A stretch of DNA of 64,000 bases, taken from positions 62,001 to 126,000 of the forward strand of contig JASANH010001438.1 of the NCBI GenBank assembly GCA_030248295.1, given 5' to 3'. The position numbers and the translations under genes are program-made. The notes beneath the pieces were generated by a model that was given only the letters and a program-made list of their open reading frames with translations, was not told the DNA's origin and did not search any database. Positions 30,740 to 62,105 of this stretch are shown piece after piece. Origin of the DNA: Mesodorylaimus sp. YZB2_4 (lineage: Eukaryota; Nematoda; Enoplea; Dorylaimida; Dorylaimidae). Numbering within the stretch: position 1 is the stretch's first letter; each line of letters opens with the position of its first letter.

Positions 30740-33700
30740 ATGGTGGTGAGGTCTAAAAGTCTGCTTTTGCTGACTTGGCTTCCATTGTTGACAAAAGCAG
30801 CAATTTTAAATGAAGCCAAAGGGTAAGGTTTCTAGATTTTGGATATAATTTTGAAGTACATGGCATGGCTTTACATTGTTGTTGGGTTTATGAGAAAAGA
30901 GTATTAGACTACTCGAAGCGTGCACTAAAAATGGCACTGACTGTAAGATTGTGCGGTAGGTCACAAGTGCTAAGCATGCTGTTGAAGGAGACTTACCTTC
31001 GACTAGTACATGGCCATCGGGCCCGACCCTGAGCAGCGATCGGTGTGTGATCGATCGACTGTCTGCCTTTTTCGACTTGATCGCATAGGGTAGATATGTG
31101 TAGGGTGTCCATAGCTCGTCAACTATGCTCTCGTGAAGACTAATTTGAGTGGATCATGAGTTGAGTAATCCTGGATCATAAGCCAAACGAGGGTCCTGCC
31201 AATACTCACTGAAATAAAGCTCGATTTTGTAGTCCTGTTAATTGAACCCTAAATTACCGCAAAGATAACTACCAAAAAATTACTCATACCATAGTTCTTT
31301 CAGATACACTCCTGAGACTCAAAATCCGAAGAAATATGGTCACTTCTAGTGGCTTCTATAGAAACATAGAAATCCGATCAACTTTTTTACAGTAGAATTA
31401 TCAACCTGGAAGTAAACTTTCTTGTCCCATCATACCTCCAGCAAAGGCTCGAACCCTACGGTCGTATGGATTATCTGTATTTCGTAGAACATTCCTTGCT
31501 TCAATGAGATCCGCAAAGCGAAATTCAGATTACTCGGTTACTCCCGTTTACCGAGTATCTTCCGTGAAGCCTACAGACACCCTTGACCTGCAATCAACGA
31601 TCTAATGATCAATTTCAGCCGCAGTAAGCTACTCCTTGCACGCCTGAGCCGCAAGTTTCAACGTACTGTAGCAATGAGTCCCTGACATTGGGTGACATAT
31701 TTGAGGAGAGGCTTTTGAGTAAACTCGATAGCAAGCAAGGTTATTGCATTTAACACTTAAATTTTTCGAGACATTATTTTTTAAGCGTGAAGCTCACGCA
31801 ATGAATGTTGATTTTAGTGATTTTATTTTAGATTATCAATCAAAGCCGAGTGTCCCATGGACCTATCCTATTATCCCTTCGATAAGCAAGCTTGTGTATT
31901 GTCAATCGAGAGCTGTAAGTAACTTTTTTATTTCTTGATGTGTCTTTTTTAGAAAACTCGCGTTTCTATCCCTGCAGTGAGGCTTAGATAAGGCCTGCAG
32001 CAAAGGCAGGCCACCAGGCCACGAGGGCCTCTTGGCCTGGTAATCCGGCCTCGTGGCCTGGTGGGTTAGGCGTCTGTCTCCCAAGTAACTCATTTCGTGT
32101 AAAATGTGTCCCTTCACCCACGAGTGCGCATAAGCGTTTGGTGATGTGGTAAAACATGAACATGAACTAGGACGGTAGGGGCCACTACAATAATTACGAG
32201 ACGCCTCTAGGGGAGCCCATTTGAGTCTGACTTGACTTTGACTGCCAGAGGCTCGGCTGTCGAGCTCATGCTCCCATCATTGAGGCAAGCAAGCTCAGTT
32301 ATTCTATCCAACCAAAATCCTTCCTGCCAAAACTTGCCTTCCTCCAGTCGGAGTTTTTTCCCAAGAGGCTTCGGTCTCTACACTACACTCTACACGACTT
32401 CTGTACTATCTCCCGCCGCCTGGGTGAGCTGGCTACCCACGGACACCTCGTGCTGAGTTTCTTATCCATACACCAAGAGGCCCGTGTACAGTAGACTCAC
32501 AATTCGGAGAGCAGCCGCACGTGTCGCCGTCGAAGGGGTCATGACACCTGGGGCCGAAATGCTCACAGAGCAATTCAAACCAGCAGCAGGAAATCAAGAC
32601 CAGTCCTTTACCGATGCCTGAAATCAAGCCGGACACTTTGTGATGGGTGTACTGTTGTGAAATGCATCATTCCATGTCAATGAGTGCCATAGCTTATGCC
32701 ATTGAGTACTCTTTTCTGTCAGGAAGACACCCCATCTTTATTGGATGTATGCCAGTGACATGAGCAAGTGTCTTGCCTTCCGCCCCGTGGCCGCACCCTA
32801 GTCTGCCTGTCTAGACTGTTTCCTGTTTCCTGTCAGCTCGACGCCGTGCCGTCTCATGAGTGACTCGGTCAGCTATTGCTGTGTGTGTGCTCGTGTGTGG
32901 TTGCTTCGTGCGTGATCCCGCGGCGGCTAGCAAAAGACTGCTCTCTAGCGTGGGTTGCTTTCGTATTTCGCAATAGCTCTGAGGAAGCCACAGTCAGCTT
33001 CCTACAACTTGACCTCGATTTGGCGCCGACTTAGGAGCTGGCCCCGACCTCGCGCTGGCCCCGACCTAGGAGCGGCAGACCCGTTCCCTGAAGCACTGAT
33101 TGGCCGGACAGACTAGTCAAATGCCTATCACACTTGCTACATTTCTAACTCATGCGGACCATATCAGCAGTGCCACAAGAGCATGGCTGTTGTGTAAAAA
33201 AGTTGCTGTGCCGGAGGTCCTGACCCTACCTGACTCATGAAGCATAAGTGGAGCCGAAGATCATGTACTGTACAGTAGGTATCGAACATGTACTATACCA
33301 CGCCTTCCTACTTCAGTAACGCAGTGGCATGTGACTCAATCTTTCAATGAACTTGACATCTTTGAGAACTCTTGGCTGCTAGACTGTGAGCTATGCTCCT
33401 TTTTTCTGTGAATTTCTGATAAAATATGCCTCGAACCAGCCGTCACTTTTCAGATGGTCACTCTGTCAGAGAAGTTCGATACAAATGGCGCCAAGAGAAG
33501 CCAGTTGTTCTAGATCTGTACCTGGAATCACCAGAATACGAGGTAACCAAGGTGAAAACACACGGGCGCAATATTACCATGCTGACAGGTACCATGCAGG
33601 GTTTCGGTTCCAAAGTAATATTATGCGTTCCTTGTTTCAGGCACTTACACTCGCCCCGACTTTCGTTTTTTCTTCAAACGGAATGCTGGTTTTTATTTTG

Positions 33701-34755: not shown

Positions 34756-37654
34756 CTAGATCAAAGTGCTCTTTTCTTCGTAGCAATTAATATTTCTGTA
34801 ATATTTGATGTTGTATTTCTCTTGTCTGTCATCCGCAAGGGCTGTCCCCTTCCCCTCATTTTCTTGCTCATTGGATTCAGAAAGATGGATTTCACAAATA
34901 TTCTGGTCTATGATGTTCTTGGACTCAAAAAAAGCAAGAAAACTGAAAGCCTGCTTAGCTCCTGGTCCGTAAGCATAGAAAAAGCGAGCTTGGCATTCCA
35001 GCAGGCCGATCCCACTGAAGGTGACTACATCTTTTGACTGACCACTCAAGAACGGTGCGTCACTCTCTTCGGTGTGATTGCACACAATGCAAGTACGTTG
35101 AGCTTGTGTTCTTGGGCTTGGAACAGGGCGTGGGAGGGGCAAAAGAGTATTAACAGGAGGTGACGAACTAGCGCTGGGGGAAGGAGAGAAAGTGTTGAAA
35201 GGAGATACTTCATGCTGCTCTGTGTGTGTTTCTGAAGCGGTTTCTGTTGGAAGAAGGGAGGAGGCTAGTGTCGTAGGTTCAACTTTTTCAGGAGGAATAA
35301 GCGTAGGACCCTTGCTGGAAGAGGATACTGTGACAGAACTTGACGGTGATGATTCAGGTAGAGTGGATGCAGGCGTGACGGTGACTGGAGGATGTGATTC
35401 TTCTGACGGAAAAACGCTGGAAGCCGATGACGTAGGAACAGTAGAACTCTCAGTCACTGTCGCACCTTTAGAAACCAAAGTTGCTGGTTCGATTTCAGGT
35501 ATTGTGACGTTTATTGGGATCATTGCCAATTCAGGTGACACCGAAGTCTCAGGCCTGGTCTGAACAGCAATGGTTGCAGCTTGCGATGCGCTTTGCACTG
35601 TGGTCGTTGAGTAGCCTTTATGGGTCAGCTCAGGTTCAAGTGGGTTCACGAAGGTGGGAGCACTCTGTGTGACCAGCACGCCTGGCGGTTGGGAGTAATC
35701 GATACGCTCCCCTGGCTGGGACGTCAACCTCTTCGGTTGATGTTTCTAGAGCAGGTATAGTCGCGAGACTTGCCTACCTCCAGTCGGAGTTTTTTGCTTA
35801 GAGACTTCGGTCTCGACTATCTCCCGCCGCCTGGGTGCGCTGGTTACACTGGCGTCACGAACCAAAGGGCCTTCTTCGGATGTAAGCCCCTTATGGACTA
35901 GTGTGCTAGCCCGGGTGGTTGTGGTGAATGCCGGACTGGCGCGCCTGCGCTTGCTGTGGCCCGAGGGTTCCCTGCAGGTGTACTCCCTACCAGACTTCGG
36001 TCTGGGTTGCCTCCACGTAGGCACCAGGGGCCAGCGGGCAAAACCTACTCCGCTATTACCTACCCGGGAGGAGAAGGTTCGGCCAGCGTTTGGTGCGCCT
36101 TAGCGCGACGGTGGGTGGAACACCTAGCGCTGATAAGGCACCACCACTGGGGTGTTGGTTCTCCCAGTTGGAGAATGGCGGGGACGCCATTTTTCCAACG
36201 GTGGGAGGAATGTGACCAGCACGCCTGGCGGTTGGGAGTAATCGATACGCTCCCCTGGCTGGGACGTCAACCTCTTCGGTTGATGTTTCTAGAGCAGGTA
36301 TAGTCGCGAGACTTGCCTACCTCCAGTCGGAGTTTTTTGCTTAGAGACTTCGGTCTCGACTATCTCCCGCCGCCTGGGTGCGCTGGTTACATCTGTGATA
36401 TGGCCTGTGCAATTGAAGATGTTGTTTTAATCGTGCTGCCAGGGCTGGTCGACGCTTCAGGGACAGGAGATGAGCCTTCTAGAATTACAAGAGAAGTGGA
36501 TTCTGGTCCAGGAGGCGCGGATGGTAGTTCAGTGTCAGCAGGAGAGACTGGTGAGAAGGACCCAGCCTCTGTTGGCGTGTATGAAGGCTGCCCGGACACT
36601 GGCGAGGAGGACTGATTGACAGCGGGTAGAGCCTCCGGCCTGAACGTTGTGGTTGCGCCGACCATTTGTCCCTCGGGTGCGAGACCAGTCGGAGTTGGGC
36701 TAGCTTCTACTGGTTCTTGATGAGTCTGAGAAAAGCTACTTGTAGGCGTACTTGGACTGCTCGGCCCAGTTTCCACATTAAATGTAGTCGCTGTGCTTTC
36801 AGTGCCACCACCAACAGCCGATTCAGTGGCAATTCTAGAGCTGAGAATACTCGCTGTGCCTGCCGAGGTATCCGTACCTATGCTGCTGCTCTCAGTCACC
36901 GTAAGTTGTGGATAGGCTGTGGTTCCTTTAGACGCCGGAACAGATGGGGTTCTTGTGGGAAGAATGTGCGTTGAGCCATAAACCATCCCCATTTCCGCTG
37001 TGGATGCAGATATTGGCAAGGTTTCTGTCGTCCGCTCACTGATCTTCTCCTCCAGATGAGATGAAGTTGTACCCATAATGGACGATGAAAGCACTTCATG
37101 AAGTGTCTTGGTGGTCGTGATTGGTCGGGTGCCATGCTCTGAAAAGCAACGGCTTTCTACAGTATTCTTCTGCTGAGCTCGTTCATACTTTCAGTGTGCC
37201 TTATCGAATTCATGTATTTCAAGTCTCCCTTCGACCTCTTACCAAAAGTGCTCTCGCAAGATACGTTGTACAGGTAGCGCGATGTTGTCGCGCCTTGCTT
37301 GGGTGCTAAAGATGATCTCATTCCAGTTGTAGGACGTGCCAAGTGGCATTTTCCATCGTCGTCCATTCGCAGGACGTCGCAGCCAGTGATATCACACAGG
37401 AGGAGACAGTTGACTAGGGCTCGTTCTGGTTTTGGCGCAATATTCAGGTAATAGCTGACGTCGTAATCTGGTTTCTCGCCTTTCCGGTACGAGCACCCAA
37501 TATTTCCAAACGCTGTGTGGAATTCAGCTGGACAAAACGGAACGAACAGCAAGAGCAGATCTAAAATAATTCAGGGTGTTTGAGGATCTTGGTTCTCAAA
37601 AGTTCGACAGTGTCACTTACAAAGCACATCCAATGCCACCATCATTTTTGGCAT
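34756..37654 (-). CDS. Secreted mucin-like glycoprotein gene, split by a TRIM-like insertion
   Basis: Exons: 37654-37621, 37560-37243 and 37138-34756, the last interrupted by the element at 35668-36391. Residues 1-23 are a signal peptide (MPKMMVALDVLYLLLLFVPF). The second exon encodes a Cys-rich domain with C-S-Y-R...NCLLLCDITGCDVLRMDDDG-K-C...NVSC, possibly PAN/apple-like. The third exon is a long Ser/Thr/Pro-rich, probably O-glycosylated region (for example TESSSIGTDTSAGTASILSS) and ends in a Cys-containing tail (RTCIVCNHTEES, IGLLECQARFFYAYGPG) without a membrane anchor. Removing the element plus one TCTG target copy (CAGA on this strand) restores one frame, ISQ|SAPTFVNP. With the insertion the frame stops two codons later (ATG TAA), so this allele should be truncated. 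An extracellular matrix, mucosal or cuticular role is plausible but not shown. Confidence 0.65.
35668..36391 (+). mobile_element. TRIM-like element: LTR 35668-35848, internal 362 bp, LTR 36211-36391
   Basis: Two 181-bp direct repeats, identical by eye, flank a 362-bp non-coding internal part. The unit is bounded by the 4-bp duplication TCTG (35664-35667 and 36392-36395). Each repeat starts TGTGACCAGC and ends GCTGGTTACA (TG...CA). The internal part begins C-TGGCGTCACGAACC one base after the left repeat, a possible tRNA primer-binding site, and ends GGTGGGAGGAA directly before the right repeat, a polypurine tract. These are hallmarks of terminal-repeat retrotransposons in miniature (TRIMs). 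No gag or pol is encoded. Identity of the repeats implies a recent insertion. Unusual features are the ~20-bp inverted ends of each repeat and strong predicted hairpins. The alternative, two MITEs inserted side by side, does not explain the outer target duplication or the polypurine tract. Confidence 0.75.
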
Positions 37655-37973
37655 GATTCTTGACTTATAGTCTCACTTTCTAAATATCAGGATATTTACA
37701 CTTGTGGTCTGATTATTACTTGTCACGCCAAGAGCCTATTTTCGACCACGGATCAGTGAGCATCGACAAAAACGGCTAATTTTTATGCACACCCACCAGC
37801 TTTGAAAGAGACCAAGCAAGACTGGCTAAAGAAAATATGGAAATGACTTGGCAGGCTTACACGTATGAGTACGAATTAATACCATATTGCAATCAAGCCT
37901 GACCAAAAAAGGTCACGATAAAATGCAGAATATCATAAAATATGTACTTTGAACCTCGAGATAGATATTGATG

Positions 37974-40229
37974 TTAATGTTTACTATTTGCACTATTCCT
38001 TGGTAAAGGAGGATAAACATATGCGGCGATCTTCGATAAACGGCCTTTGCGTTTGTTTTCATACCGCGATCGAAATTTTTCCACCAAGATCGATACTGGG
38101 AACGCCAAAATCAAAATGCCCGTTATGCACGCACATCCAGCCACAACTTTACCCATTTCTGTATCTGGTGTCATGTCGCCATAACCTAAACAGGAGCGAA
38201 AAGGCAAACGGAATATGCTGGCATTTTAGAATTTTTCTTACCAGTTGTAGTCAATGTGACAACGCACCTACAACGTGAAAGAGCCCAAGGCCAGATACAG
38301 GTAACAGCTGCCAGAAAATTTTATGCTTTACTTACCACCAGAACGAAGCTGGTATACTGGTATATTTTGTATTTTCCACGTCCTTTTCGATATAAAAGAG
38401 AGTGGTTGAAAAGATAACGGTTGATACGGCTAAGAACATGATCAACAATCCAAGTTCGGATCGACTATTCCACAATGTTTCACCCATCACTTGCAAACTG
38501 TCGAAATAGCGAGCCAATCGAAAGATGCGAAACACACGGCCAATACGCATGACACGAAGGAATTGAAGCAATGCAGCGCTCTTATCCTCGGCACCACTTG
38601 TCCAAATCAGTAATTCCACATAAAATGGTAAAGTAGCGAATAGATCGATTAAATTCATTATACTTTTTAAAAAATTAATCTTATCAGGGCAAGTGAGCAA
38701 GCGAATGACAAATTCGAGCGTGAACCAAGCAATGCATACTGCTTCGATCACGTCAAATACGAAACCTCCTTCGCAAGTGTACGAGAATTTGTCTTTGATC
38801 GTTCTTCGCCTCAGGAATGCTTGTGTGGCGGATGATGTGTTGGTGCTGGAGTCTGTTGGTGAAATAGTTTCGATAGACGATGTGGCATTAGCAAAACTCA
38901 ATGCGTCATTGATCAACGAAGCTGTGTCATTGGCGAAAGTGGTATTATCATCTGATAGAGAACTTTCCTCGTCAATACCCAAGAATTCATGGCCCGTACA
39001 ATGATGCAGAGTCGGAATCGTGCTGATTACCAGATTTGCAATGGAGAGGAAAATGAAAAATACGCAAATAATGTTCAAGATCTGAAAAGGACATAAGATA
39101 GTGTGGGTTGATAGTGTGTGACGCGATACAGTATTTTTTATTACAGTATTGCTGCCTGTCAAAAATCAGGGTTTGCTTGGGTGTGTTAAAATCAGGTTTT
39201 GTTCGTATGCTCGAGTGACGCTTTTTGATTTTTGCACTGGCCAAGAACTTCTAGAGTTTGCGTCTATAGGGTATTCATTGATGCATAGCATCCGGGAGCA
39301 CAAATCAATGAACGATCATTCATCCATCTGTCTCGACGAAGAAAATCCCCCAAGTGAAACTATGTATGGGTCACAATGATCTCCCATCAGGTAAGATCAG
39401 ATCGTCAAACAGTCTTAAAATTTCTGCTTTACTGATTCCGTTAAGTCCTGTCTGGCTCTCTTCCACCTCGAACCGTCTGTTTGTTGTAAGTATTACAGGC
39501 TTTACTAGCCTCCCTATCCTTCAACGTATCAGCTTTCCTTACCTTGGCTGCTATTGACGAGGATGGGTCATCAAACAAGCGCCAAATAAAATCTTGGTAC
39601 TTCCGACCGCTCTGATTGGCCGATATGACACCATGTCTCCTCGAACTTAGAGGACTATTCTTTTCTGATGGAGTCTTATAGCCAGGCGGAGTATCCGAAG
39701 GGTCTTCAGTCACATCACGGGAATCAACAATCGTAGCGCCAATTTTTTCCGCAAAATCTTGACAGCATTCTTCGAGAAGCTTTTCGGGGAGGCGCCAAAA
39801 TTTAATTTCGTCCATAAGCATTGCCTCGCACACACCAGTTGGACAGTGTAACTGACCCGTGTAAGCATAATGAAGTATCAATTCGAATAGACCAGGTGTC
39901 CGTTCCACGTAATATTCATTACTGCCCAATCGAACACAACCCGCCGTCACATACTCGTCATTGACCGTCGTTTCGGAATTGTTATTCCCATAATTGTGCA
40001 GAAAAGAGAACAGCGAGCCGTCCAATTTGCGCCTGATCGTAATCTCACTGATGGCGTATTTTCTTCCGCTAACATTAAGCCGAAGGAAAGTGAGTGAGTC
40101 GTTAGAAGTGGGAGGAGTGGTCATAGCTGCACCTCGAGTGTTCGTTTTCTGACTGGGACTGTTATTAGGCACGTTATTTCTGTGCACCGGCTGACGACGA
40201 TTAGTCGGTACGGTGGCGGCGAGAATCAC
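37974..40229 (-). CDS. Voltage-gated potassium channel alpha subunit (Kv, Shaw/Shab-like), 4 exons, 556 aa
   Basis: Exons: 40229-39543, 39081-38336, 38267-38242 (26-base microexon) and 38185-37974. All junctions are GT-AG with agreeing phases; total 1671 bases. Exon 1 carries the T1 tetramerisation domain (LRLNVSGRKYAI, RTPGLFELILHYAYTGQLHC, LLEECC); the H-x5-C and C-C residues match the zinc site of non-Shaker Kv channels. S1 is ~230-252, S2 ~340-360, S3 ~368-388. S4 (~402-420) has Arg at every third position: LRVMRIGRVFRIFRLAR. The filter T-T-T-G-Y-G-D is assembled across the microexon-exon 4 junction. S6 ends FPVSILVEKF, where most Kv channels have P-x-P. The S1-S2 loop is long, acidic and has several N-x-S/T sites. 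Product: delayed-rectifier-type plasma-membrane K+ channel. The start could also be the Met at about residue 36; the C-terminus is short. Confidence 0.9.
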
Positions 40230-42552
40230 TAAACTTTTCCTTCGGTATTTGTTTAGCCTTTATCGCAAGGTGTGTGAGATCCGGAAAACCGAATAGTCAA
40301 CTCGTCTTTTTTCTTTGATTTACAATGAGTGAACCAGGCCGATGTTTGTGCAGGTACTCGAAGGAAGGCAAGGCACCGCCCCTTTTCTCTTTCGGCACAG
40401 AAGACACAAATTAACTTGACAGTTCGTTTGTACGATGGATTAGAAATGGTATGCGAAAAGTTTGAGTGCAGTTTGGAGAAGGGTGAATTGTTCGGCAAAA
40501 TCATAATTTACTCGGGCCCAGTTTTCCATCTGGTCCAGATCTTTTTTTCAAATTGTTTTATCTGACTTGCATGGTGATGATTGATCGACAAGGTGGTAGC
40601 AATAACGTGGTACCCGCACGAAGTGATGATTTTGCATACAAGAAAAAAGCGCGCAAAATTTTAAGATATTGCACATAGCAGTAACATACAGCGACGAAAG
40701 AGGCCAATATTATAAATCTTTAATAAAATGCACAAATTTAGAAGCCAGAGCAATCTTTACACTATTAGCCAGCACTAAAATCAACAAAGTCCTTGATCTT
40801 GCTCTTTTGTATAAGACATTTTTGTGGGTGTGGTGTGTAATGTTTGTCATTGCCGATAGGCCCTTGCCTCCATTATGTTGACTGGTTATCAAAAGATTAC
40901 TCTCTTTTCGAGTCAGAAGAAGACGGAAGACCTTGTGGTATTTTGTTCTATGAAGGTAAATCGAACCAGTTCGGGGGACTACATGTACGGTTAGGGCGTG
41001 TCTGCCGTCTCTTGACAGAGCCGTGTCATGATTGTCGGGTGCTGTGATAACGTGGTAGACGTGTACTCTTCGGTTGTGGCGGTGATTTCCGATGAGCGAA
41101 CCCGATCAATGTTTGTACAGCTAGTACTTGGGGAGAGGCAAGGCAAGTACAAACTCTGTGAAAATCGATGTGATGTGACATGCAGCTGTTCTGCTTGCTC
41201 ATTGTACATATCATGATTGCTGTTTCCATGCTATTCGCATTGCGCTTTTGGAAAGTACAGTGAAAATGCAGCGCCATAAGCGAGTCGAGATGCACCCACT
41301 GGGTCGATGTACTCTATTCCTGTTCCATGTATACACCAAAAATTATGAAATGCTTGTTGCTTAGAGTGGTACTAAAGCCCGAAGTATAGTTCGATGCGAT
41401 GCGTCAAATAAGCGTGCGATGCGACACTTTTTGGTCACCCACAAATACAAAGGCCCAAAACCCCCCCTCCCAACTTATTTCCCCCCACTAAGGGTCTGCT
41501 TTTGTGTGTTGCTATGCAATCGTGCGAACCTGTTCCGCCTAAAATTAACCAGAGAATAGGTGACTGGAGAGGAGGATGAGTGAGTAGAATCCTTACCTTT
41601 GCGCTGGTCGAGAGGCTGTCGAACACCGGCAATCCGCCTGACAGATCTGATTTGGGAGTTATTGTCAATGTTGGCGTGCAGATCAGTTCTTTCTGAACGT
41701 GCTTACGTATTTGCCTAAAAAATAACATGTGTTCTTCGTCCTTTTTCAATCAAGTTTTCAACTGTAATGGTAACTGTCTGCTACTAAATTCGTCAATAGT
41801 TTTCATCATTTCACCATGAATCGTTGTCAACCATCTACGTAATGTATGTATTATGAGATTTCTAGGGCCAACTTTTTGTCACGCTGCAGTAAATTATACA
41901 AATGCTCGACGGGCTTTACATAATTTACCACAGCATGGCAAATGCAAGTACGTAGACAGAAGGTTAGCTTGAGCGGGACCCAAGCAACTAACCTGCCTAA
42001 CCACGGTCAGCATGGTCATCATTTCTCCACTCATTTTGGCGGGCTTCTGACAATGAGCTTTCTGACGTGAATTGAAGAACGAATATTTCAGAAATTTATT
42101 ATTTATTTTATGTGATCTCACACTCAAACTCCCCAGTTTATGAATGAACTCCGGAAGGAATAATATCGGTCTCCTAATAAGGCACATTGAGATTTGAATA
42201 ACCCAAAAGTTTGAAAAACAGTCTGTAAAATTTGTCCATGGTGTTTGTTGTGGATATCGTGTCCACTGGATCTTTGCTTGAACATACCTGTTCGGAATCA
42301 TAGATAGCAGTGTCTAGAGGCTACTATGACGCGCGGCTGTTGTTGAAGCTCATTGTCAGCTGGATTGTGAGAAAAACCAATTCCCGATGGGGTTTTACCC
42401 ATACTTGATGGAATCCAATGAGGACGGGTCGCTCTTTATGAATACTGTACATCAGAGGAGAAGAAATGAGCATAAATTGCTTTTGTACGTTGTACCCGCT
42501 CGGTCGTGCATTCTTGGGATTCCGACACTGTTTCTTGCCAATCCAAAGTGAG
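40230..42552. other. Intergenic, with one candidate minus-strand exon
   Basis: 41714-41597 (minus) is bounded by TTTTTTAG and AAAG|GTAAGG and reads QIRKHVQKELICTPTLTITP-KSDLSGGLPVFDSLSTSAK, which looks coding but belongs to no family I recognise. A short frame at 42034-41993 (MSGEMMTMLTVVRQ, donor GTTAGT) could be an upstream exon, but its phase does not fit. Nothing else is supportable. Confidence 0.35.
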
Positions 42553-43753
42553 ATGGCCAACACGATATCTGCCTGCCTAAGCCAGTATCCTACGTGTAAC
42601 ACTTCTTTGTTCAGCGATATCCAAGTACGTACTTGCTGCGATCTACAGCGGAAGTGGTCGTTGGAATCGAATCTCTATGATGCACTGACTGGCTATAGCA
42701 TGGTCGTATCTGGCATATTTGGCCTACTTGGCGCTCTGTTAATGTTCCTGACATTCTGCAGGTCAACGCTCACTGGACCAAGCTTCATTTATCACAAGGC
42801 TGTGGCTATATTCGAATTGGTCCATATGATGATTATGACCGAATATGGTATTTTTCGTTTGTTGCATTTTCCAACACCATTTAGCGCGTTGCCCGTTTGG
42901 TACACAGTGTTCAATCAAGGTTGGGTGTTCGGTGGTGGATTGAAAACGACTGTGTCTCTGATCGCTGCGCTAATATCGATCGAGCGATGCGTTGCTTTGT
43001 GGGAACCCCATAAATTTCAATTGATCAATAGAAATATTGTAGCTTTTTGCGGTATCCTATTCTAATTTCTGTTTGGGTGTTTGCATTGGTGCAAGCTGTC
43101 AGGATATACCATCTTTGTTGTCAATGGCTCGCTACAGTATGAACCATCAAGCATTTATTCTTCAGCCACTCTGGCAGATCATACACTTCAGTATTACATT
43201 CTACCAACTTTCAAAGTAGTTCTGTGTTTGGCCATCCTTATTCTTAGCATTGTTATTGTGTTCGGTTTGCGTTCACGGGCTCAAGTGGCAACGACACTCA
43301 CAAGTCAGCAAGATAGGAAAGATTGGAATTCGATGAAGCGATTGTGCTACTTGCAGTTGCTCCTCGCCAGCACAACCGTACTTGACCATGCGGCCTGGGC
43401 AGCATACCGAGTAGCCATCATGATAGCAGGCTACTACACTGAAGGCCCAGAGTATTCTCAATGGTATGACTACCTTGGTTCTACGAAGCGCATGGTTCGA
43501 CTACAGTTCGTACAAGATATAACGGCGCAAATAGTGCACAGCTGGAGATTCTATCTGTACTTGATCTTGCACAAGACATTTCGCCAGGCATTCGTCAGTC
43601 TGGTTAGAAAAAATCAAGTGGCACCAAGTGAGTACAGAGCCCCCTTTTAGCAAGATGAAAACTAAAAGAACCAAGTGGCCATCTTATCTTTTAGGTGGAA
43701 CGCACCCGCTGTTCAGTCTCAAAGCTACGGGAGCCTCAGCCAGAACATCGTAG
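42553..43753 (+). pseudogene. Rhodopsin-like GPCR, paralogue 1, one nonsense codon
   Basis: Exon 1 42553-43627 and exon 2 43695-43753 (donor GTGAGT, acceptor TTTTAG). Start MANTISACLSQYPTCNTS. TM1 is near GYSMVVSGIFGLLGALLMFL, TM3 ends in I-E-R-C (the DRY position), TM5 is near LPTFKVVLCLAILILSIVIV, and after TM7 comes YLYLILHKTFRQAF, a helix-8 pattern as in peptide receptors. The whole frame is open except a single TAA at 43063-43065 in TM4; the paralogue at 48.2 kb has GCA at this position. It is therefore a young pseudogene, a null allele or a sequencing error. The TRIM-like element at 43812 sits just beyond its stop codon. Ligand unknown; an arrangement like FMRFamide-type or chemosensory orphan receptors is possible. 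Confidence 0.7.
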
Positions 43754-43811
43754 CCGAAACTATTAATAGCGATTGCGCTGAAGACTCGTGGCATAGCGTT
43801 GACCGGATTAG

Positions 43812-44400
43812 TGTAACCAAGCCTGGTAGGCGTAGGAGGAACAAAAACTCCGACTGGAGCAGGATAGTCTTGCGACTATACCTGCGGCTGAAACATCAAC
43901 CCGAGGGGTTGACGTTTCCCAGCCAGGGGAGAGTATCGATTACTCTCTCCCACTCGCCATGGCCTACCAGGCGGGGGGTTACATTCCTCCCATCGACTTC
44001 CCGGAAGGAAGACCTCCCCCTCCCAATAAGATAGAGGGCCGACCTCACACTGCCTACGCAGTGCAGACGGTACTGGGACCAGCTGGCTAGGCTTGCCAGG
44101 CCAGTGTTGGACTAAACGCCCTAGACCGTGACGAACATGGGCGCACCCAGCGGTTCGACGGGGACTTACACCACTATGGATGGCCCCAAGGTCCGTGACG
44201 CTAATGTAACCAAGCCTGGTAGGCGTAGGAGGGAGGCGGCCGACCGAAGTCGGCGGGACAAAAACTCCGACTGGAGCAGGATAGTCTTGCGACTATACCT
44301 ACGGCTGAAACATCAACCCGAGGGGTTGACGTTTCCCAGCCAGGGGAGAGTATCGATTACTCTCTCCCACTCGCCATGGCCTACCAGGCGGGGGGTTACA
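43812..44400 (-). mobile_element. TRIM-like element, second full copy
   Basis: Two direct repeats, 43812-43983 (172 bp) and 44205-44400 (196 bp), flank 221 bp of internal sequence; the outer target duplication is TTAG (43808-43811 and 44401-44404). Relative to the copy at 35.7 kb it is inverted. On the minus strand the internal part starts TTAGCGTCACGGACC, matching CTGGCGTCACGAACC of the other copy, and ends GATGGGAGGAA before the next repeat, matching its polypurine tract. The shorter repeat lacks ~24 bases that would form one whole hairpin; otherwise the two differ by about one base. Non-coding. Confidence 0.75.
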
Positions 44401-44727
44401 TTAGGCGTCTGGCTTTCGCAGTGAGAATTTTCCAGGGACTGTTCGATCCTGGCCTGGGCAAGCTGTGCTGTGTAACGTGTTTCTTCTCGAGCGCTCATTC
44501 TAGCTTATTGTTAGTGATGCAGTAAAACATGAACATGGAATAAACTAGAAATTAATAGACATGTGTTAATATTCTACGGGGACCAAACGTTCTGAAAAAC
44601 AAACCATGAAATTTCCGTATTGTAACAATGTGTGACACTGCAGAAGCAATGATCTTTTCGGCTGACTGTATTTCTGTACTTCTAAAACGTTCTTCCACGC
44701 CTAACGCTGGGTGTAACAGTAATAAAA

Positions 44728-45757
44728 GTTTCTAAAAAAATCTGTTATCAAACAATAAAAAAGTTAGCCCAGCCACCCTACTCGAACCAAATGCGAGGCA
44801 AACGAGGTTGGCTGGGCTCCCTCGGCGGCACATGCTTAAGTGGGCTATTGTAAGACGTCTTGCCTCACAACAAGTCGAGTGTTGATATAGGTTTATTCGA
44901 GCGCACCGTACGCCACGAGTTACACCGAGTACTGACTGAGATACCAACAAACGGTTATAAGTGCAATTCACAAAACAAAAGAAAGACAAGGGAACCAGTC
45001 AGCATGGCCCGTACCCGATGTTGACTTAGGCCTAACAGGCAAAGGTAGCATGAACTCACCAGACACAGGTATCATTATCATGGTGCACAAACTAGATCTT
45101 ATATCCCCCTTACATTATGCTTATGTGGAAGTGATATATCTACGTTTATGTTGCCTTCAGGACGAGGCTCACAATCGTTTTCACACTTACCCACAACGCA
45201 TGTCTCTGTGATGTACTTGATACATCGAGGAGTCGTGGGGTCAACTCCCTGTGGGATTTTATCGTTTTTCACCAAAGGCCAGTATCCACATGAATAAACT
45301 TATTCGTATTTTGGAGTAAGTACAGAAGTTTGGAGTTTTGGAATACGATCCCCTTCTATTACCTCGAACTTACTTGGAAAACAGTGAGGACTTGCTGCAG
45401 TAAGGTTGCATCTGCCGTGACAGCACGAGTACTGCTTGTGTGGCACCTACTCAGTGACACTAGAACAGGAAGTTCAGCTTCTGTGGAGCCAGCATGCTAA
45501 TAGCTTTAGGCGTACAACCTTCAGCACTAGAACGACCATCGGCGATTGTGTTGTCATCTCTCTATTGCCTTAATGAAGTGGCTGAGGTAGGGGACGCCCT
45601 GTTACAATTTTTTATGACAGTAGCAATGCTGTTTGATCACAATTTTTCTACAAACGCCGCCGAGGGAGCCCAGCCAACCTCGTCTCGCCTCGCATTTGGT
45701 TAGAGTAGGGTCGCTGGGCTAACCTTTTTGTTGTCTGATAACAGATTTTTTTAGAAA
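44728..45757. mobile_element. Foldback-type DNA element with ~103-bp inverted repeats
   Basis: 44728-44830 (TTTCTAAAAAAATCTGTTAT... GTTAGCCCAGCCACC) is the near-exact reverse complement of 45655-45757. The ~820 bp between them have no coding capacity that I recognise. The target duplication is unclear. It is a non-autonomous DNA transposon or MITE, family not assigned. Confidence 0.7.
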
Positions 45758-45913
45758 TAATAGTAATTTTTCGCACCTACATTTGGGCTAGGAATTCAGA
45801 ATAGATGGAAGAAGTTTGTCGTCTAGTCACTCCTGAGCTGACGCAAATATCGTACAAAGAAGGTTGCCGCGTTGTGCTCTGTCACTGCAGCCTACCGCGC
45901 ATAAGACTTACGA

Positions 45914-45953
45914 TTAGACAGAGTAGGGCCCCCGACCACCCTACTCTGTCTAA
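45914..45953. repeat. Perfect 15-bp hairpin
   Basis: TTAGACAGAGTAGGG at 45914-45928 and its exact reverse complement at 45939-45953, loop 10 bases. It may be a MITE relic or a structured RNA; it is not next to a gene end that I can see. Confidence 0.7.
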
Positions 45954-45957
45954 ATCT

Positions 45958-48231
45958 TGTAATTAGAGCACACAATACTGAAGAATGATAAGCCACGGAG
46001 GAGTGGATCAAGAACTCTGACTTTACTTAGTACCAACTGATCGTGAGCTGAGCTGAATTTGTTGCCAAATGCAGTAGATAGGGCTGGGAATGGTCGAAAA
46101 ATTAATTGCGTTCCCTGTTTCTTGCCCCCACTCGTATAATCGACCCTTCAGATCACAACGCGCGGACAAAACTGCCTCAAGAAGTCTTAGAAAAGGACAC
46201 GCTGCTTCAAAAATGTGGTAACGTAGGCTGCTATATCCAGATTTACACCAATCCGCCAGAATCCGCGAAAAAACCTAAAATCCACTGCAAATTCCGCAAA
46301 AACAGTCAATCCGCTGTTTATCCGCTGTCGGGAAAAAAATCCGCCAGATCTAGCAGATTCTAGCTGCATTAGCAACGCTGCCAGTAAGTTTTTTTAACGA
46401 AGGGTAACTACGGCTAACGGGAACAGCGCGCGCCGCACGGCTAATAAAAATAAAGAATTTGCTAAAACTGCGTTGTTAGCATAGCTCGGGATGTATGGTG
46501 CATATATCAGAAACACGGAGCAAACAATACAAAGCAGAGCACACATAGTACGTTTCGACCACTTCACACCGCCATAATCAGCGAGTGCAGCAGAAGGAAC
46601 ACCACCACCATCTCGGGCAATTTGATGTCTTCTGTCATTTGAGAACCAGTATCAGTTCGAGCACAGGTCGCTTGGATGGTTTTGCTTGATGGCGCACGAT
46701 TGGGGCACATAGGCGGGCGTCAGAATCCTCGAGTTTATTTCAGAATGCCATAAATCTTACTCGCTTTGCAAGTCTGGTTGTGTCATCCTATCGCACATAT
46801 GCGTATGCCTTGCTATGATCGTAAAGCGGCAAACAGTGTGTTTTTTGGACAGTAACTGGGAAAAAGAGGGGAAAAACCAAGGTGAAACCTACGAGACTGT
46901 CAAGGGAGCAATGACAGACTTCAAAATTGAGAATGGCGCAAAGCCACGGTATTCTATCAGACAGAATTCCATAAAATCTTGCGTTCGCCTGGCAATGCTC
47001 GGTTGGAGCAGATAGTTTCAAAAAGGCCATCCAGAGTAAGTCGAGAAGAGAGCTGTCCTGTGTTCGATTCTTTTTCCACCCGCATAGCTAGACTGCTAAA
47101 AAAACCACAAAATGGACCCCGCTCTAGTCGGATGCATTTACTGTACATTGTATCGGGTGTGCCATAAAGAATGACCCTCTAATGTATCGTCTTCTATGGG
47201 CCTTATTAGGCAAGTTATCGCAAAATATTTTATACCATTGTGTTCAGCATTCAATTCTGAGTCAGCTTGGCCTATTTTACTTGCCAATATATTCACCATT
47301 CGTTTTCAAAACTCGATGCAGTCGAGAGTACCAACTTTCACAGCTTTTTTTCTCAATATCCAAACGAATTAGTCATCAGTGGGAAGCCAGGAAAGGCAAG
47401 TGCAGCAGGTTCATTCGGACTAAACCTAAAACAGCGACACCCGTCTAGATCATATTTGGGCGACGCTGGGGCTTGTGACAGGACAAATCATCTCTAACCA
47501 GAGATTGTCAGACTACGATAGATACTTTAACGATAGAAAAATGCCATGCAGGTTATCACAAGAAAGCTGTGAAACCAAATGAGGCAATGAAATGAACATT
47601 TCGTTCGGCCTGTATACCTTAGAAAGGGCACTGAAGGTGCTACACTAAAATGGGTGAATGGGTCAAACAGGAGCTGTTATGGCTGTAATAACATAACATA
47701 GCTTGTTTGGAAAACCTTCAAGTACACTACGCCGTGGCTTATCGCTATACGTCTAAAACTCATGCTGCAGCATCTTTTAGTGCTTGCACCGAATTCTTGT
47801 CATGAACACCTAACGGATTTTCATTCCAGCCTGATCAAGATATGCCCCCGCATCCGGACATTCTCGTTGGATATGAAGGATTTTCTCATTTCATTAGTCG
47901 AGGATGATGTCTCTGCGAGAAGCAGACTACGACTGACGAAGCATAAGCGTTGGTGATGTGGTAAAACAGGAACAGGAACAGGACGAATGAGCAAACCAGT
48001 AGGGCGCGTGAGTGGGCATAAGTGCATTTCTTGAGCCAAATGTCACGCGCCATATCTTTGCGAGCCTGTTTTCCCCGATTAGTGATGTCGGTACGTATTG
48101 CAACAAAGGCATAAAAATTTACATGCCAGTTTAATAAATACAGTATAGGAGACTTCTGCTCTTTTTAGCTTTATAGCGTCAGCTTTGAATTGCGGGATTA
48201 TTTGAGCTACAATCATTGAGGGCCCGTCAAG
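45958..48231. other. No gene recognised
   Basis: Short frames only. A SINE-tail fragment (AAGCATAAGCGTTGGTGATG-TGGTAAAACAGGAACAGG) lies at 47938-47985. The 5' flank of GPCR paralogue 2 is at the right end. Confidence 0.5.
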
Positions 48232-49791
48232 ATGGCTAGCACTTGTAGCCCCCCCCCCGCCTGGTTGGCCATGGCGAGTGGGAGAGAGTAATCGATACTC
48301 TCCCCTGGCTGGGAGACGTCAACCCCTCGGGTTGATGTTTGAGCCGTAGGTATAGTCGCAAGACTTGCCTGCTCCAGTCGGAGATTTTGTCCCGCCGAGT
48401 ACGGTCGGCCGCCACCCTCCTACGCCTGCCAGGCTTGGTTACACACTCCGGAAGTTTGCCTCCAGCTGTACAGTGTCTGCAATAGCACCTATTTCAACTC
48501 AAATCAAATCAATGATTGCTGCGATCTGCAGCAGTCATGGTCAATGGAATCAAACCTCTATGATGCGTTGACTGGATACAGCTTGGCCATATCTGGTACA
48601 TCGGGCATGTTTGGGGCAGTGTTCATGTACATAACACTCCGCAATAAAGCGTTCTCTGGTCTTAGTTTCCTCTATCACAAAGCAGTGGCTGTATTTGAGC
48701 TAATCCATATGATAATCATGACCGAATACAGCATTTTTCGCTTGCTGCATTTTCCAATAACTTTTAGCGCTTTGTCCGTTTGGTACGCAGCGGTTGGCGG
48801 TTCAATCAGGGTTGGGTATTCGGAGGTGGATTGAAAACTACCGTGTCTGTGATCGCTGTCCTGATATCGATCGAGCGATGCGTGGCTTTGCGGAAAGCTC
48901 ATAAATTTCGGCTGATCAATAAAAATTGGGTGGCCATTTGTGGGATTGCAGTCGCATACCTGATTGGGTGTCTACATTGGTTCAAAGTACTAAGGTACAG
49001 AATTTTTATTCTTGATGGCAGTCTGCAGTATGTTCATGGGGAGATCTTTCCTCCGATCGTTTTTTGTCGACGGTATACTTCAATATTACATTCTTTCAAG
49101 CCTAAAAGTATTGCTGTGCTTATGTTTGTTAGGTCTTGGCATCGCTATTGTTATTGGCTTGCGCTCTCGCGCCAAAGCTACAGCACCTCTAACAAATCAC
49201 CAAGAACGTAAAGAATGGGATTCGATGAAGCGTTTATGTTACTTGCAACTGCTTATTGCCACTACAACCTGTCCTCGACCACGTGGCTTGGGCTGCTTAC
49301 CGATTGGCTATTATAACGGCCACTATTATGATGGCTACGGATCTGCTACGAAGATTGGTACGATAGCTTCTGGCACACGAAGCTTATGGTACGGTTACAA
49401 TTTGCTTTAAGATGTCACTGCACAAGGGGCTCACAGCTGGCGCTGCTATTTGTATTTATTATTGCACAAGACATTTCGACAAGCGTTCATTCATTTGTTA
49501 AAGAAAAACCACGTTACGCCACGTAAGTACAGTATGAGGTTGTCTCATCGTCAGACACGAGAGAAACAAACGGGTCGCCAAATAGGCGTTACAGTATCCC
49601 CTGTCACTGTCAGCAGCCGCACTCAAAAAAAGCAAAACTCCTTTGGTAACGTCGAAAGATTATGATGGCAAGAAGAAGCATTGTGATCGAGTAACTTCTT
49701 GATCTATGCAGGTGCATCAATATTGACTGGGCAACAACGCAGAAGCCAACAGCAACCGTCTTTAAACCAAAGTACCAACATGGCCAATTAG
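48232..49791 (+). pseudogene. Rhodopsin-like GPCR, paralogue 2, with solo-LTR insertion and frameshifts
   Basis: Homologous to 42553-43753 over its whole length. The start ATG GCT AGC ACT (48232-48243) is followed by a 200-bp solo LTR; after it the frame resumes CCG GAA GTT TGC, so element removal gives M-A-S-T-P-E-V-C-L, aligning with M-A-N-T-I-S-A-C-L. Further breaks: an 8-base insertion/duplication near 48793 (GCGGTTGGCGGTT), a frameshift near 49045-49080 before LQYYIL, and disruption of TM6-7 at 49265-49410 with a stop. The splice donor to the C-terminal exon (C|GTAAGT at 49523) and exon 2 (49712-49791) are preserved. Several independent lesions show a dead gene. Neighbouring conserved text includes ESNLYDALTGYS and E-R-C at the DRY position. 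Confidence 0.75.
48244..48443 (+). mobile_element. Solo LTR of the TRIM-like family
   Basis: A 200-bp copy starting TGTAGCCCCCC and ending CTTGGTTACA, flanked by CACT on both sides (48240-48243 and 48444-48447). Same orientation as the 35.7-kb element. A solo copy with its own 4-bp duplication is what LTR-LTR recombination leaves behind. Confidence 0.75.
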
Positions 49792-50167
49792 AACCGAATT
49801 ACAGAAAAACCATCAGCTGGTATTCTTAAAAGAAAAAAGGAGAAATTTTCTAATAATTACTGTATATCCGCTTGCCTTGAATCTTGGGAATCAATTTTTA
49901 GATGTATTTTGTCCCACTTTGTGCGGTGAAAGATCCAGCTCTTATTCTACCCCGTACTGATAATCATGAGCTAGCTTGCTTGTTTTTCCTGTATCTTGCG
50001 CTTACGTGCACTCCGTATTTATGCACTGTACGGGTTGGCATTCTCGACATGTACCGCATGCATACAAACATATACATTTATAACAAAGCATATATACAGC
50101 ACTTAATGAAAATTGACTCAAGTTTTCTTTCCAGGTGTCATTTTGTCTACTACAAGAGTACCTGCTG

Positions 50168-51007
50168 TTAGGGTCCACACTACATGGAGGTCCACACTAC
50201 TTGGAGGTCCACACTACTTGGAGGTCCACACTACTTGGAGGTCCACACCACTTGGAGGTCCACACTACTTGGAGGTCCACACTACTTGGAGGTCCACACT
50301 ACTTGGAGGTCCACACTACTTGGAGGTCCACACTACTTGGAGGTCCACACTACTTGGAGGTCCACACTACTTGGAGGTCCACACTACTTGGAGGTCTACA
50401 CTACTTGGAGGTCCACACTACTTGGAGGTCCACACTACTTGGAGGTCCACACTACTTGGAGGTCCACACTACTTGGAGGTCCACACTACTTGGAGGTCCA
50501 CACTACTTGGAGGTCTACACCTTGGAGGTCACACTACTTGGAGGTCCACACTACTTGGAGGTCCACACTACTTGGAGGTCCACACTACTTGGAGGTCCAC
50601 ACTACTTGGAGGTCCACACTACTTGGAGGTCCACACTACTTGGAGGTCCACACTACTTGGAGGTCCACACTACTTGGAGGTCCACACTACTTGGAGGTCC
50701 ACACTACTTGGAGGTCCACACTACTTGGAGGTCCACACTACTTGGAGGTCCACACTACTTGGAGGTCCACACTACTTGGAGGTCCACACTACTTGGAGGT
50801 CCACACTACTTGGAGGTCCACACTACTTGGAGGTCCACACTACTTGGAGGTCCACACTACTTGGAGGTCCACACTACTTGGAGGTCTACACTACTTGGAG
50901 GTCCACACTACTTGGAGGTCCACACTACTTGGAGGTCCACACTACTTGGAGGTCCACACTACTTGGAGGTCCACACTACTTGGAGGTCCACACTACTTGG
51001 AGGTCCG
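50168..51007 (+). repeat. 17-bp minisatellite, about 49 copies
   Basis: Unit GGTCCACACTACTTGGA repeated with very few variants (ACATGG, ACCACTT, GGTCTACA) and one local deletion at ~50512-50535 that shortens two units. Because 17 is not a multiple of three and the unit holds no plus-strand stop, all three plus frames stay open and encode the same 17-residue repeat (GGPHYLEVHTTWRSTLL). This is best read as a non-coding minisatellite; there is no evidence of a host gene around it. Confidence 0.9.
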
Positions 51008-51510
51008 CAGCATGACAGGCATTTTTGCACTAGAACATTGACGTCAGACCTGGTCGAAATCCTTTAAGTCTCTACTTATGTGCTTCTGGCTGGAACCCCT
51101 CGAAATCCTACAGTATATCCACTGGGTAAAAACAAAGATTTACGGTAAGCGGCTGGGCGGGGCGCAGTGCTAATCCCGAGGACACATACCGCAGCAAAAG
51201 GAAGGCCAACACTTACTACACTAGGTAGTTTGCGAACGTGCTGCAAATCTAGACACGAGGTTGCAATTTTACAGGGCGCCTAATTTTACGCTGCACTTTA
51301 CGCAGATGAAAATTGTTTTCTACTGTATGGCAAAATTTCATTCGCATATCTCAAAGAGTGTAATGTTCACACATGAGCACTGGTTCAGTCTAGCACCAGT
51401 GTCAGCTTGGATAACCTCGCGTACAGCTGTGTTGCCAAGATCGAGGTACGTATGGACGCAACCAACACGTACAAAGGTTGGGCTCAATTGCGACCGCTCG
51501 TTGACGGACG

Positions 51511-58376: not shown

Positions 58377-59703
58377 AGGTCTGTTTCTCGAAAGACCTAA
58401 TGTCTGGCATTATCTAATGCGGCATTAACGGCATTAGCTCTGCATTAAACCTAACTTAACTTATCGCTGATCGAAGTTCGCCTACAGTCGATGCTTGTCT
58501 GTGTGCAAAGTATGCAGGCGAGAATCGATTTTTTTCGGTCAATTTTTTAATGCATACTCAAATTTATTCGATCACATGAGTGTGCATCTGGTCAGCCGGC
58601 ATTCTATTGCAACGTTGCAATTACATAAGTTTCGATCACAATTACCTTTACGGTTCTTTGTCATAATCAAACTTTTTCACATAATGCTTGCGAAAAATAT
58701 GCCGAACTAATGATAAGCTACTCAAGCAACTGTTACGGGTGGCTTTTCAAGTTCCTACAACACCCTTCTTCCACAAGTTTTCTTAACAGTGGCCTCCACA
58801 GCCTCAACAGTCTCAACAGAGGCACTGGCGAGTGGTAGAGAGTAATCGATACTCTCCCCTGGCTTGGAGACCGCAACCCCTCGGGTTGATGTTCCAGCCG
58901 TAGTTACAGTCATAATTCATTAGTCAAAGTTTCTGCCCCACCGGCTTTGGTCGGTTGCATTCTCTCCTTCCCCTGCCAGGCCCTTATTCATCCACTTGCT
59001 TTTGCAAGCTTTCAACAGGATAGCTTGACGGTGGCTGCAAATGTGCACGACTCTGCTTTCCAAACCGCGGAGAAAAAACATCAGATTGCGTGGCTCAACC
59101 GTGGTTGACGTGCGTACCACCAAGAGCCACCTCCCAGCGGTGCCCTCTGATTTGCTGGCTGAACCACAGTCCGAATGTCCTCACCGTCCTTTTCATCCCT
59201 GATTTCATCATCTTCAAAAACAACCTTACTTTGCAACTTAACACACTGCTGAATGCTGGGTTCCGTGCCAGACGGCCTTCGATAGCACCAGCAACGCCTA
59301 GCATGCTACTGAACTGTAAAACCATTGAGGCCATTGGGATTGAGATCAGAGTAAGAACAGAAACAAAGTCATGCAGCCTCCTCACCTCAGAGACAACAAA
59401 AAACGACTTCCAAGTAAATGCCACAGGCATGATGGTATGACCATGGCGCTCCATCTTGCGCGCGACCTCGAAAAGAATGAAATTTGCTTGCACCTGATCA
59501 CGCAAAAGCTGTGACAGAGCCTGATAATGAGGGCTTATCATGGATAAGGTATCTCCGGAGGCACCTTTTTTTTCGGGGCTCGGCTGCTAAATGTAATGGT
59601 CAACCTTAATTTTAAGTCCTTTTGAGAAACAGATCGCAAAGTTAATGCCAGATTATCCAAAAAATCCGCACTTAAAGATAAGTGCTTTCGAGAAACCGGG
59701 CCC
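58377..59703. mobile_element. Possible DNA transposon with GTTTCTCGAAAG ends
   Basis: GGTCTGTTTCTCGAAAGACC near 58377-58396 and, at the far end, the reverse complement of CTTTCGAGAAACCGGGCC (59686-59703) share an inverted GTTTCTCGAAAG core; GGCATTA.. text recurs inside both. 59541-59095 (minus) is open for 148 codons and contains FSSMLGVAGAIEG, faintly like the G-A-I-D-G block of Harbinger transposases. Boundaries and family are tentative, and a TRIM-like LTR relic is nested at 58826-58985. Confidence 0.3.
58826..58985 (+). mobile_element. Degraded solo LTR of the TRIM-like family
   Basis: Contains GCGAGTGGTAGAGAGTAATC, GATACTCTCCCCTGGCT, CAACCCCTCGGGTTGATGTT and CCGGCTTTGGTCGG in the family order. 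The TG...CA ends are lost and the flanks show no duplication. It is an old copy. Confidence 0.7.
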
Positions 59704-61968: not shown

Positions 61969-62105
61969 AGCGGGTTAAGGCGTCTGCCTCTCACGCTGGG
62001 TGTGCACTCACAGGGGAGGGTTCGACGCCTGGGTAAAAAAATAATTGTCAAATATGTGCTCCTTAGCCCTCGAGTGTGGTGCTTGGCTATGGATAAAGTA
62101 TGACG
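61969..62105 (+). mobile_element. tRNA-derived SINE with intact A and B boxes
   Basis: AGCGGGTTAAGGCGTCTGCC (A-box region), then 40 bases later GAGGGTTCGACGCCTGG (B box), followed by a non-tRNA tail related to 23190-23275 and 31990-32175 (ATGTGCTCC...CCTCGAGTGTGG). The arms do not pair well enough for a functional tRNA. Confidence 0.55.

Follow-up and report, generated by a model that had tools for sequence, protein, structure and literature searches.

What are the short, hairpin-rich repeats that recur in a 64,000-nucleotide stretch of the genome of the nematode Mesodorylaimus sp. YZB2_4 (positions 62,001 to 126,000 of contig JASANH010001438.1, assembly GCA_030248295.1; hereafter the window), copies of an RNA gene or parts of something else? 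An initial annotation had suggested that the span 35668-48443 might hold a retrotransposed structured RNA, but the repeats are the long terminal repeats (LTRs) of tRNA-primed elements with 4-bp target site duplications (TSDs). Within the span are two such elements, here termed A and B, and one solo LTR, separated from one another by other sequence. The elements are terminal-repeat retrotransposons in miniature (TRIMs), gene-less LTR retrotransposons of less than 750 bp. A and B are assigned to this class because they have LTR pairs with TG...CA ends, a primer binding site (PBS), a polypurine tract (PPT), 4-bp TSDs and related solo LTRs, no open reading frame (ORF) of 150 amino acids or more inside, and a size below the 1,000-1,500 bp taken as the upper limit for the class. 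Going further, we propose tentatively from sequence and predicted structure, as a reading that may well be right although our confidence in it falls short of even, that in these TRIMs the LTR RNA is structured and works in cis as a module through which the element is mobilised in trans. The features concerned are listed below, where P1 is the terminal stem, H1 to H5 are the inner hairpin motifs and z is folding stability relative to shuffled sequence.

35668-36391, plus strand: element A, a complete TRIM of 724 bp (LTR 181, internal region 362, LTR 181)
35664-35667 and 36392-36395: TSD of element A, TCTG
35668-35848, plus strand: 5' LTR of A, 181 nt, stable predicted fold, z -7.36
36211-36391, plus strand: 3' LTR of A, 181 nt
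35668-35688, plus strand: P1 5' arm of A (terminal stem)
35691-35711, plus strand: H1 motif of A with ATCGAT mid-motif; the hairpin is predicted in B/C, not in A
35718-35746, plus strand: H2 hairpin of A, GGGACGTCAACC/GGTTGATGTTTC
35753-35775, plus strand: H3 hairpin of A, with the GNRA loop GCGA
35778-35789, plus strand: H4 motif of A, CTCC-AGTC-GGAG, outside the predicted full-length fold
35790-35795: T6 run after the H4 motif of A
35801-35814, plus strand: H5 motif of A, GAGAC-TTCG-GTCTC; a rival hairpin takes its place in the predicted fold
35824-35848, plus strand: P1 3' arm of A (terminal stem)
35850-35862, plus strand: PBS of A, TGGCGTCACGAAC, one base past the 5' LTR
36200-36210, plus strand: PPT of A, GGTGGGAGGAA, before the 3' LTR
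43812-44400, minus strand: element B, a complete TRIM of 589 bp
43808-43811 and 44401-44404: TSD of element B, TTAG
44205-44400, minus strand: 5' LTR of B, 196 nt, predicted fold with z -9.50
44194-44203, minus strand: PBS of B, TAGCGTCACG; other B copies read TGGCGTCACG
43984-43994, minus strand: PPT of B, GATGGGAGGAA, before the 3' LTR
43812-43983, minus strand: 3' LTR of B, 172 nt, H5 motif deleted
48244-48443, plus strand: solo LTR, type B, with TSD CACT at 48240-48243 and 48444-48447
58820-58981, plus strand: old, diverged LTR copy
32328-32435, plus strand: fragment like the 3' half of the LTR

The LTRs start with TG and finish with CA. In the genome searched (the 145-Mb assembly, 1,067 contigs), counting only copies whose ends are exactly TG and CA, 4-bp TSDs are exact at 17 of 17 full elements and at 59 of 75 solo LTRs. 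The two LTRs of A, 181 nt each, are identical to each other, so its insertion is probably recent. The 13-nt PBS of A is complementary to the 3' end, including CCA, of a tRNA-Ser-like gene found at five genomic places, serine having been assigned by eye from the anticodon; a PBS-region string reads TGGCGTCACGGACC in B copies and TAGCGTCACGGACC in the window copy of B. No ORF of 150 amino acids or more occurs in the internal regions of A (362 nt) and B (221 nt), whose lengths across copies run from 328 to 362 bp and from 221 to 247 bp, respectively. The initial annotation was right that the repeat at 43812-43983 has lost one hairpin: the H5 motif of 44205-44400 is missing there, as it is from two further genomic copies (L061 and L132). 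Copies are abundant, the LTR core motif AGGTATAGTCGCRAGACT having 2,643 genomic matches at up to three mismatches against 201 for a reversed control. The solo LTRs, with inverted ends of ~20 bp and a 4-bp TSD, might be read as miniature inverted-repeat transposable elements, a reading rejected because full elements carry PBS and PPT inside one TSD pair. Element A itself lies antisense within a long Ser/Thr-rich open frame (window 34756-37094); the minus-strand frame across the site is 568 amino acids long once the insert and one TSD are removed.

Two sets of genomic LTR copies underlie the comparisons that follow. In the first, 148 of 166 hits were kept, giving 110 distinct sequences and 97 once near-duplicates were removed, of which seven, broken or very diverged, were dropped to leave a covariation alignment of 90 copies; the second comprises 205 hits, 176 full-length and 139 distinct (45 A, 94 B/C), and is the basis of the motif, helix, lineage and pairing-probability counts. 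The sampled copies form at least three subfamilies (A, B and C) plus one divergent copy, D (L037). A LTRs have the ends TGTGACCAGC...GCTGGTTACA; B LTRs have TGTAACC...GGTTACA plus GCCTGGTAGGC...GCCTACCAGGC, the subfamily form being GCCTGGTAGGC...GCCTRCCAGGC; and C LTRs end in GGTTGCA, with the arms ACCGGGCAGGC or TGCCGGCAGGC accompanied by GCCTGYCTGC or GCCTGCCGGCA. By eye, C looks like a mosaic with a core like A and a last hairpin like B.

LTRs usually change faster than the internal region. Here, judged by sequence comparison, the pattern between A and B is the reverse, the LTR core being more conserved than the inside. The window LTRs of A and B are 81% identical over 122 nt, while inside the elements a 23-nt match at the PBS end (78%) and a 12-nt match at the PPT end (92%) are each not significant alone, and beyond these the internal parts share 7-8-mers at most. 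Every inverted motif named in the initial annotation is present, and the hairpin motifs read GGGAG...CTCCC or GAGAGTA...TACTCTC (H1), CAACC...GGTTG (H2), AGTC-GCGA/GCAA-GACT (H3), CTCC-AGTC-GGAG (H4) and, for H5, GAGAC-TTCG-GTCTC in A versus CCGAC-TTCG-GTCGG in B. ATCGAT is found in H1 of 39/45 A, 53/66 B and 22/28 C copies, and the H3 loop reads GCGA in all 45 A copies, GCAA in 62 of 66 B copies and GCGA in 17 of 28 C copies.

The LTRs of A and B are predicted to fold far better than shuffled sequence, in keeping with the initial annotation's view of them as structured: with z of -7.36 and -9.50, neither was equalled by any of 200 shuffles. Across a plus-strand grid of 426 windows, each with 25 shuffles (mean z -0.11, standard deviation 1.32), the three lowest z values all belong to windows that overlap LTRs (43801-43981, 36151-36331 and 44251-44431), and the 22 lowest listed include no grid window that cuts through the solo LTR or the 5' LTR of A. 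The internal regions give z of -3.21 and -3.35 in A and -0.93 in B. Further comparison comes from other genomic sites with the same PBS. Two of these sites, a divergent TRIM-like one (L174) and one of B type (L177), score -4.29 and -6.26. Two longer stretches ending at this PBS, L176 and L178, are called LTR-like because they are 77% alike over the 400 nt up to the PBS, a similarity with no LTR pair seen; with z of -1.94, 0.17 and -1.83 (L176) and -1.49, -0.74 and -0.81 (L178) they are predicted to be unstructured. A truncated recombinant, L175, scores 1.64.

Highly paired, non-coding RNA together with a 4-bp TSD, a PBS and a PPT is the general anatomy of plant LTR retrozymes as described (~70% paired; PMC4918200), and the units of A and B, at 72% and 69% paired, invite the suggestion that the LTR contains a self-cleaving motif of a kind not yet described, by which a unit of circular RNA is set free. 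Shuffled units are already 67% and 65% paired, however, and no Rfam ribozyme matched even at E values up to 5 over both elements, so that this suggestion is scarcely credible. The described retrozymes also differ in having LTRs of 300-400 bp, a hammerhead ribozyme and a tRNA-Met PBS (PMC4918200), whereas no ribozyme was found here. More generally, the comparison with Rfam (the window at the gathering score, both elements permissively) gave no family match and nothing near the gathering score; no cellular RNA or ribozyme was recognised, and on this ground too the RNA-gene interpretation is not supported. One match of the LTR core in IMG/VR resembles, by eye, unrelated coding sequence and was taken as chance.

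A run of five or six T conserved directly after the H4 motif could likewise be a terminator, were the elements TRIMs transcribed by RNA polymerase III (TRIMp3) with a captured small-RNA gene. We consider this very improbable: ARAGORN finds no tRNA in the window, there is no Rfam match to 5S or tRNA, and nothing resembling box A or box B turned up when the LTRs of A and B were scanned with simple patterns. The elements thus share no found tRNA or 5S similarity with the TRIMp3 elements Helenus, Ajax and Cassandra (PMC10886601), and, in the absence of any recognised hammerhead, tRNA or 5S portion, they are on these tests neither retrozymes nor TRIMp3.

Which helices, then, would the LTR transcript form? 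In the full-length ensemble of the A LTR the mean pair probability is 0.95 for P1a, 0.85 for H2 and 0.98 for H3, and in the B LTR P1, H1, H2, H3 and H5 lie at 0.93-1.00. Counting copies with the exact motif and a mean probability above 0.5, H3 is predicted in 39/45 A and 76/79 B/C copies, H1 in 57/61 and H5 in 39/43 B/C copies. In tests on 13 helices across 139 copies, where values are the number of 300 null sets at least as high, uncorrected for the 13, pairing kept gave 1 for P1b, 8 (B/C) and 22 (A) for H2, 8 and 12 for H5, 26 for H1 (B/C), 31 and 84 for H4, 39 and 38 for P1a, 100 and 39 for H3 and 130 for P1c. When P1 arms are exchanged between subfamilies, own-subfamily pairing is best for the A, B, C2 and D rows; for C1 a single D 3' arm is slightly better than its own, and with C1 3' arms the 5' arms of C2 and D are slightly better than their own. 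For H5 (33 of the 139 copies, those without a TTCG loop, being excluded) own arms form 4.45 of 5 pairs in A and 4.69 in B/C, and swapped arms 2.83 and 2.77.

Inverted motifs of this kind might also be mutational by-products, template switching in the course of reverse transcription or replication having copied one arm onto the other and produced an appearance of compensation without selection. Hairpin losses and duplicated arms in 43812-43983, L061, L065, L071 and L073 and the recombinant copies L175 and L178 fit this explanation, which we nevertheless regard as unlikely, given that H2 and H5 columns keep pairing above the null and that, in A, changes in stem columns are rarer along active lineages than in decaying copies. 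The latter result comes from parsimony changes split between internal branches, taken as active-lineage history, and terminal branches, mostly post-insertion decay: in A there are 7 stem to 42 unpaired changes on internal branches versus 93 to 134 on terminal branches (p = 0.0003, odds 0.24), the stem columns including H4 and H5, both outside A's predicted fold, and A and B/C pooled give p = 0.013. Among changes away from Watson-Crick pairs, G.U outnumbers A.C by 20 to 8 on internal branches (p = 0.036) and by 87 to 77 on terminal branches (p = 0.48). In 84 of 90 copies the sense strand gives the better fold of the two. Of six copies compared with shuffles, both of type B and both of type C show a preference beyond that due to composition (matched by 9, 1, 0 and 0 of 200 shuffles). 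Taken together, the lineage and strand results lean towards a function of the sense RNA, short of proof.

Several results weigh against an RNA function, beginning with the predicted folds themselves. In the full-length ensemble of the A LTR, H1, H4 and H5 have probabilities of 0.00-0.01, a rival hairpin CGGAGTTTTT/AGAGACTTCG (35785-35809, probability 0.96) displacing H4 and H5; the rival hairpin excludes these two in A, and the alternatives are possibly the states of a switch. H4 does not form in the B LTR either (0.34), and over the copies H1 is predicted in 0/26 A, H5 in 2/23 A, and H4 in 2/23 A and 8/51 B/C. The models thus give A and B/C no one shared fold, P1, H2 and H3 being common to both, and of the multi-branch fold first envisaged these three helices stand, while H1 and H5 are limited to B/C and H4 is seldom seen. 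Nor did the all-pairs covariation analysis (G-test with product correction and a tree-simulated null, 90 copies, one genome, hence few independent lineages) lend support: 0 of 18,721 pairs reached E < 0.05, and a lack of covariation beyond phylogenetic expectation is the outcome that the initial annotation had named as refuting its structured-RNA reading. The top pairs (e.g. columns 170 and 195) mostly involve non-pairing letters and reflect subfamily linkage. At the level of helices, H1 to H5 have no covariation score above the null in the 13-helix tests on 139 copies. The covariation proposed for H5 amounts to two base pairs that differ on both sides of the stem between A and B; this may be a single evolutionary event, and compensation from A to B/C is weak evidence because H5 is not predicted in A. 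Avoidance of stem changes is absent from B/C (54:67 versus 243:252, p = 0.42), the contrast in G.U excess between internal and terminal branches is not significant (p = 0.099), and in the two A copies among the six the strand preference lies within composition (19 and 152 of 200 shuffles).

Such support as covariation gives sits mainly in the terminal stem, summed scores being as high in 2 of 300 null sets for P1b of B/C and in 5 for P1a of A, against 28 for P1c of A and 97 to 300 for the other ten helices, again uncorrected for 13 tests. P1 arms do differ together between subfamilies, and integrase recognition could also explain this; the P1 covariation may reflect DNA recognition by integrase. 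It is indeed possible, and to be taken seriously, that the inverted structure as a whole serves DNA, with terminal ends for integrase recognition and inner palindromes as paired transcription-factor sites of a compact promoter. Covariation is strongest in the terminal stem, whose two ends must both fit a single integrase, the minus strand folds well too (-78.7 for A, -103.8 for B), and A and B/C keep the motifs while differing in their predicted RNA folds. A DNA function sits less easily with a GNRA loop in H3 of 45/45 A and 62/66 B copies, with the sense strand being favoured in 84/90 copies, and with an LTR-like stretch that has the same PBS, and maybe uses the same enzymes, yet is unstructured.

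TRIMs depend for their movement on the proteins of a partner, an autonomous LTR element. The genome contains at least 150 matches to RT_RNaseH_2 (150 scored of 488 candidates), many within long open frames, which we take to be of gypsy type, and 20 sites with the extended serine-tRNA PBS. Six of these 20 were read (L174-L179): L174, L177 and L179 follow TRIM-like LTRs, and the other three, L175, L176 and L178, come after the long LTR-like stretch, which ends in GGATTTCAC in L176 and in GGATTACAC in L175 and L178. The L176 site (C73:163032), one of the 20, lies by its coordinates 5.8 kb upstream of an RT_RNaseH_2 match, making C73:162500-169139, with its LTR-like stretch and tRNA-Ser PBS, a candidate autonomous partner. 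In L175 and L178 this stretch, with its PBS, is fused to the mid-part of a B-type LTR, which suggests recombination or template switching between TRIM RNA and the RNA of an LTR element from a different family.

In the mechanism we propose for a structured LTR, the TRIMs would be mobilised in trans by the proteins of the autonomous element, and the LTR transcript would act as the cis-acting module. H2 and H3, and in B/C also H1 and H5, are local, so the genomic RNA would retain them provided that transcription does not begin within them. H1 of B/C presents a 6-nt palindrome, AUCGAU, in or beside its loop that would suit kissing-loop dimerisation. P1 could serve twice: as DNA it would be an inverted repeat read by integrase, and as RNA its arms would pair across the internal region, drawing the ends together for reverse transcription in the manner of Ty1 CYC5:CYC3. 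The arms could close the internal region because the end of U5 stands just before the PBS and the start of U3 just after the PPT; when a continuous segment of A that runs from U5 into U3 is folded, its P1 arms pair. A bolder version, which we think very improbable, makes the LTR a self-contained structured RNA replicon whose fold alone recruits gypsy-type machinery, the filler being nearly free; that fold would provide dimerisation, 5'-3' closure and possibly an undescribed self-processing step. Were this true, one would be dealing with a mobile motif of RNA instead of a reduced retrotransposon, and its LTR fold would count as a new RNA family.

The closest functional parallel is the 5' RNA domain of Ty1, for which kissing-loop dimerisation, packaging and 5'-3' pairing for reverse transcription are comparable proposed functions; there, CYC5:CYC3 pairing is described as promoting reverse transcription, and dimerisation is proposed to begin at kissing loops (PMC5454406). 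Ty1, however, is an autonomous element with experimentally mapped signals (PMC5454406), whereas function here is inferred from sequence. TRIMs have already been described in plants, in hymenopteran insects, in bivalves and in taeniid tapeworms (PMC10886601, PMC4558846). The tapeworm element ta-TRIM (Koziol 2015, PMC4558846), compared by description and not by sequence, is like those here an animal TRIM, non-coding, with LTRs of ~198 bp, TG...CA ends, a PBS, a PPT and 4-5 bp TSDs, and is likewise abundant, with 1,939 loci of LTR similarity in E. multilocularis, many of them solo LTRs. It differs in its tRNA-Leu PBS and its ~590 bp inside, as against a tRNA-Ser-like PBS and 328-362 (A) or 221-247 bp (B). 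The available part of that account mentions secondary structure only for the packaging signal and does not use the word 'hairpin' (PMC4558846). Plant TRIMs/SMART (Gao 2016, PMC4717578) are similar in size, in having TSDs, in encoding no proteins and in forming tandem copies, although their TSDs are described as 4-6 bp generally and 5 bp in the examples, as against 4 bp here; neither 'hairpin' nor 'secondary structure' occurs in the main text (PMC4717578). No title or abstract on a TRIM with a folded LTR was found in the open-access literature searched, Repbase and most subscription journals being outside that scope.

Other features of the window and genome can be noted briefly. Two similar stretches, 42466-43650 and 48800-49532 (71-76% identical), look like tandem multi-pass receptor genes, and B-type TRIM copies adjoin both; the first, 42466-43650, has no Pfam match. 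Potassium-channel-like exons, with BTB_2 and Ion_trans matches, lie on the minus strand at 38332-40229, and 50113-51067 is occupied by a tandem repeat (GGPHYLEVHTTWRSTLL and similar) with three open reading frames. Between 44760 and 45740 inverted stretches seen by eye, AGCCCAGCCACCCTACTC...GGCTGGGCTCCCTC and GAGGGAGCCCAGCCAACC...GAGTAGGGTCGCTGGGCT, may belong to an inverted-repeat transposon. Fifteen COX1 matches on contigs C73, C273, C741, C47 and others, a number of them interrupted by stops, point to mitochondrial DNA copied into the nucleus. One COI-like locus can be read with TGA as Trp and has a nematode-like appearance.

What is new here is a stable predicted LTR fold in TRIMs, an LTR core conserved above the inside, and LTR-like stretches with the same PBS that appear unfolded. 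How a TRIM is recognised by the Gag and reverse transcriptase of another element is unsettled, and the packaging signal has been described as difficult to identify (Koziol 2015, PMC4558846). Subfamilies with little in common apart from the PBS, the PPT and a folded LTR core point to a possible site for such a signal, one that could be tested by base-pair swaps. The case also serves as a warning that small structured genomic repeats may be LTRs rather than RNA genes.

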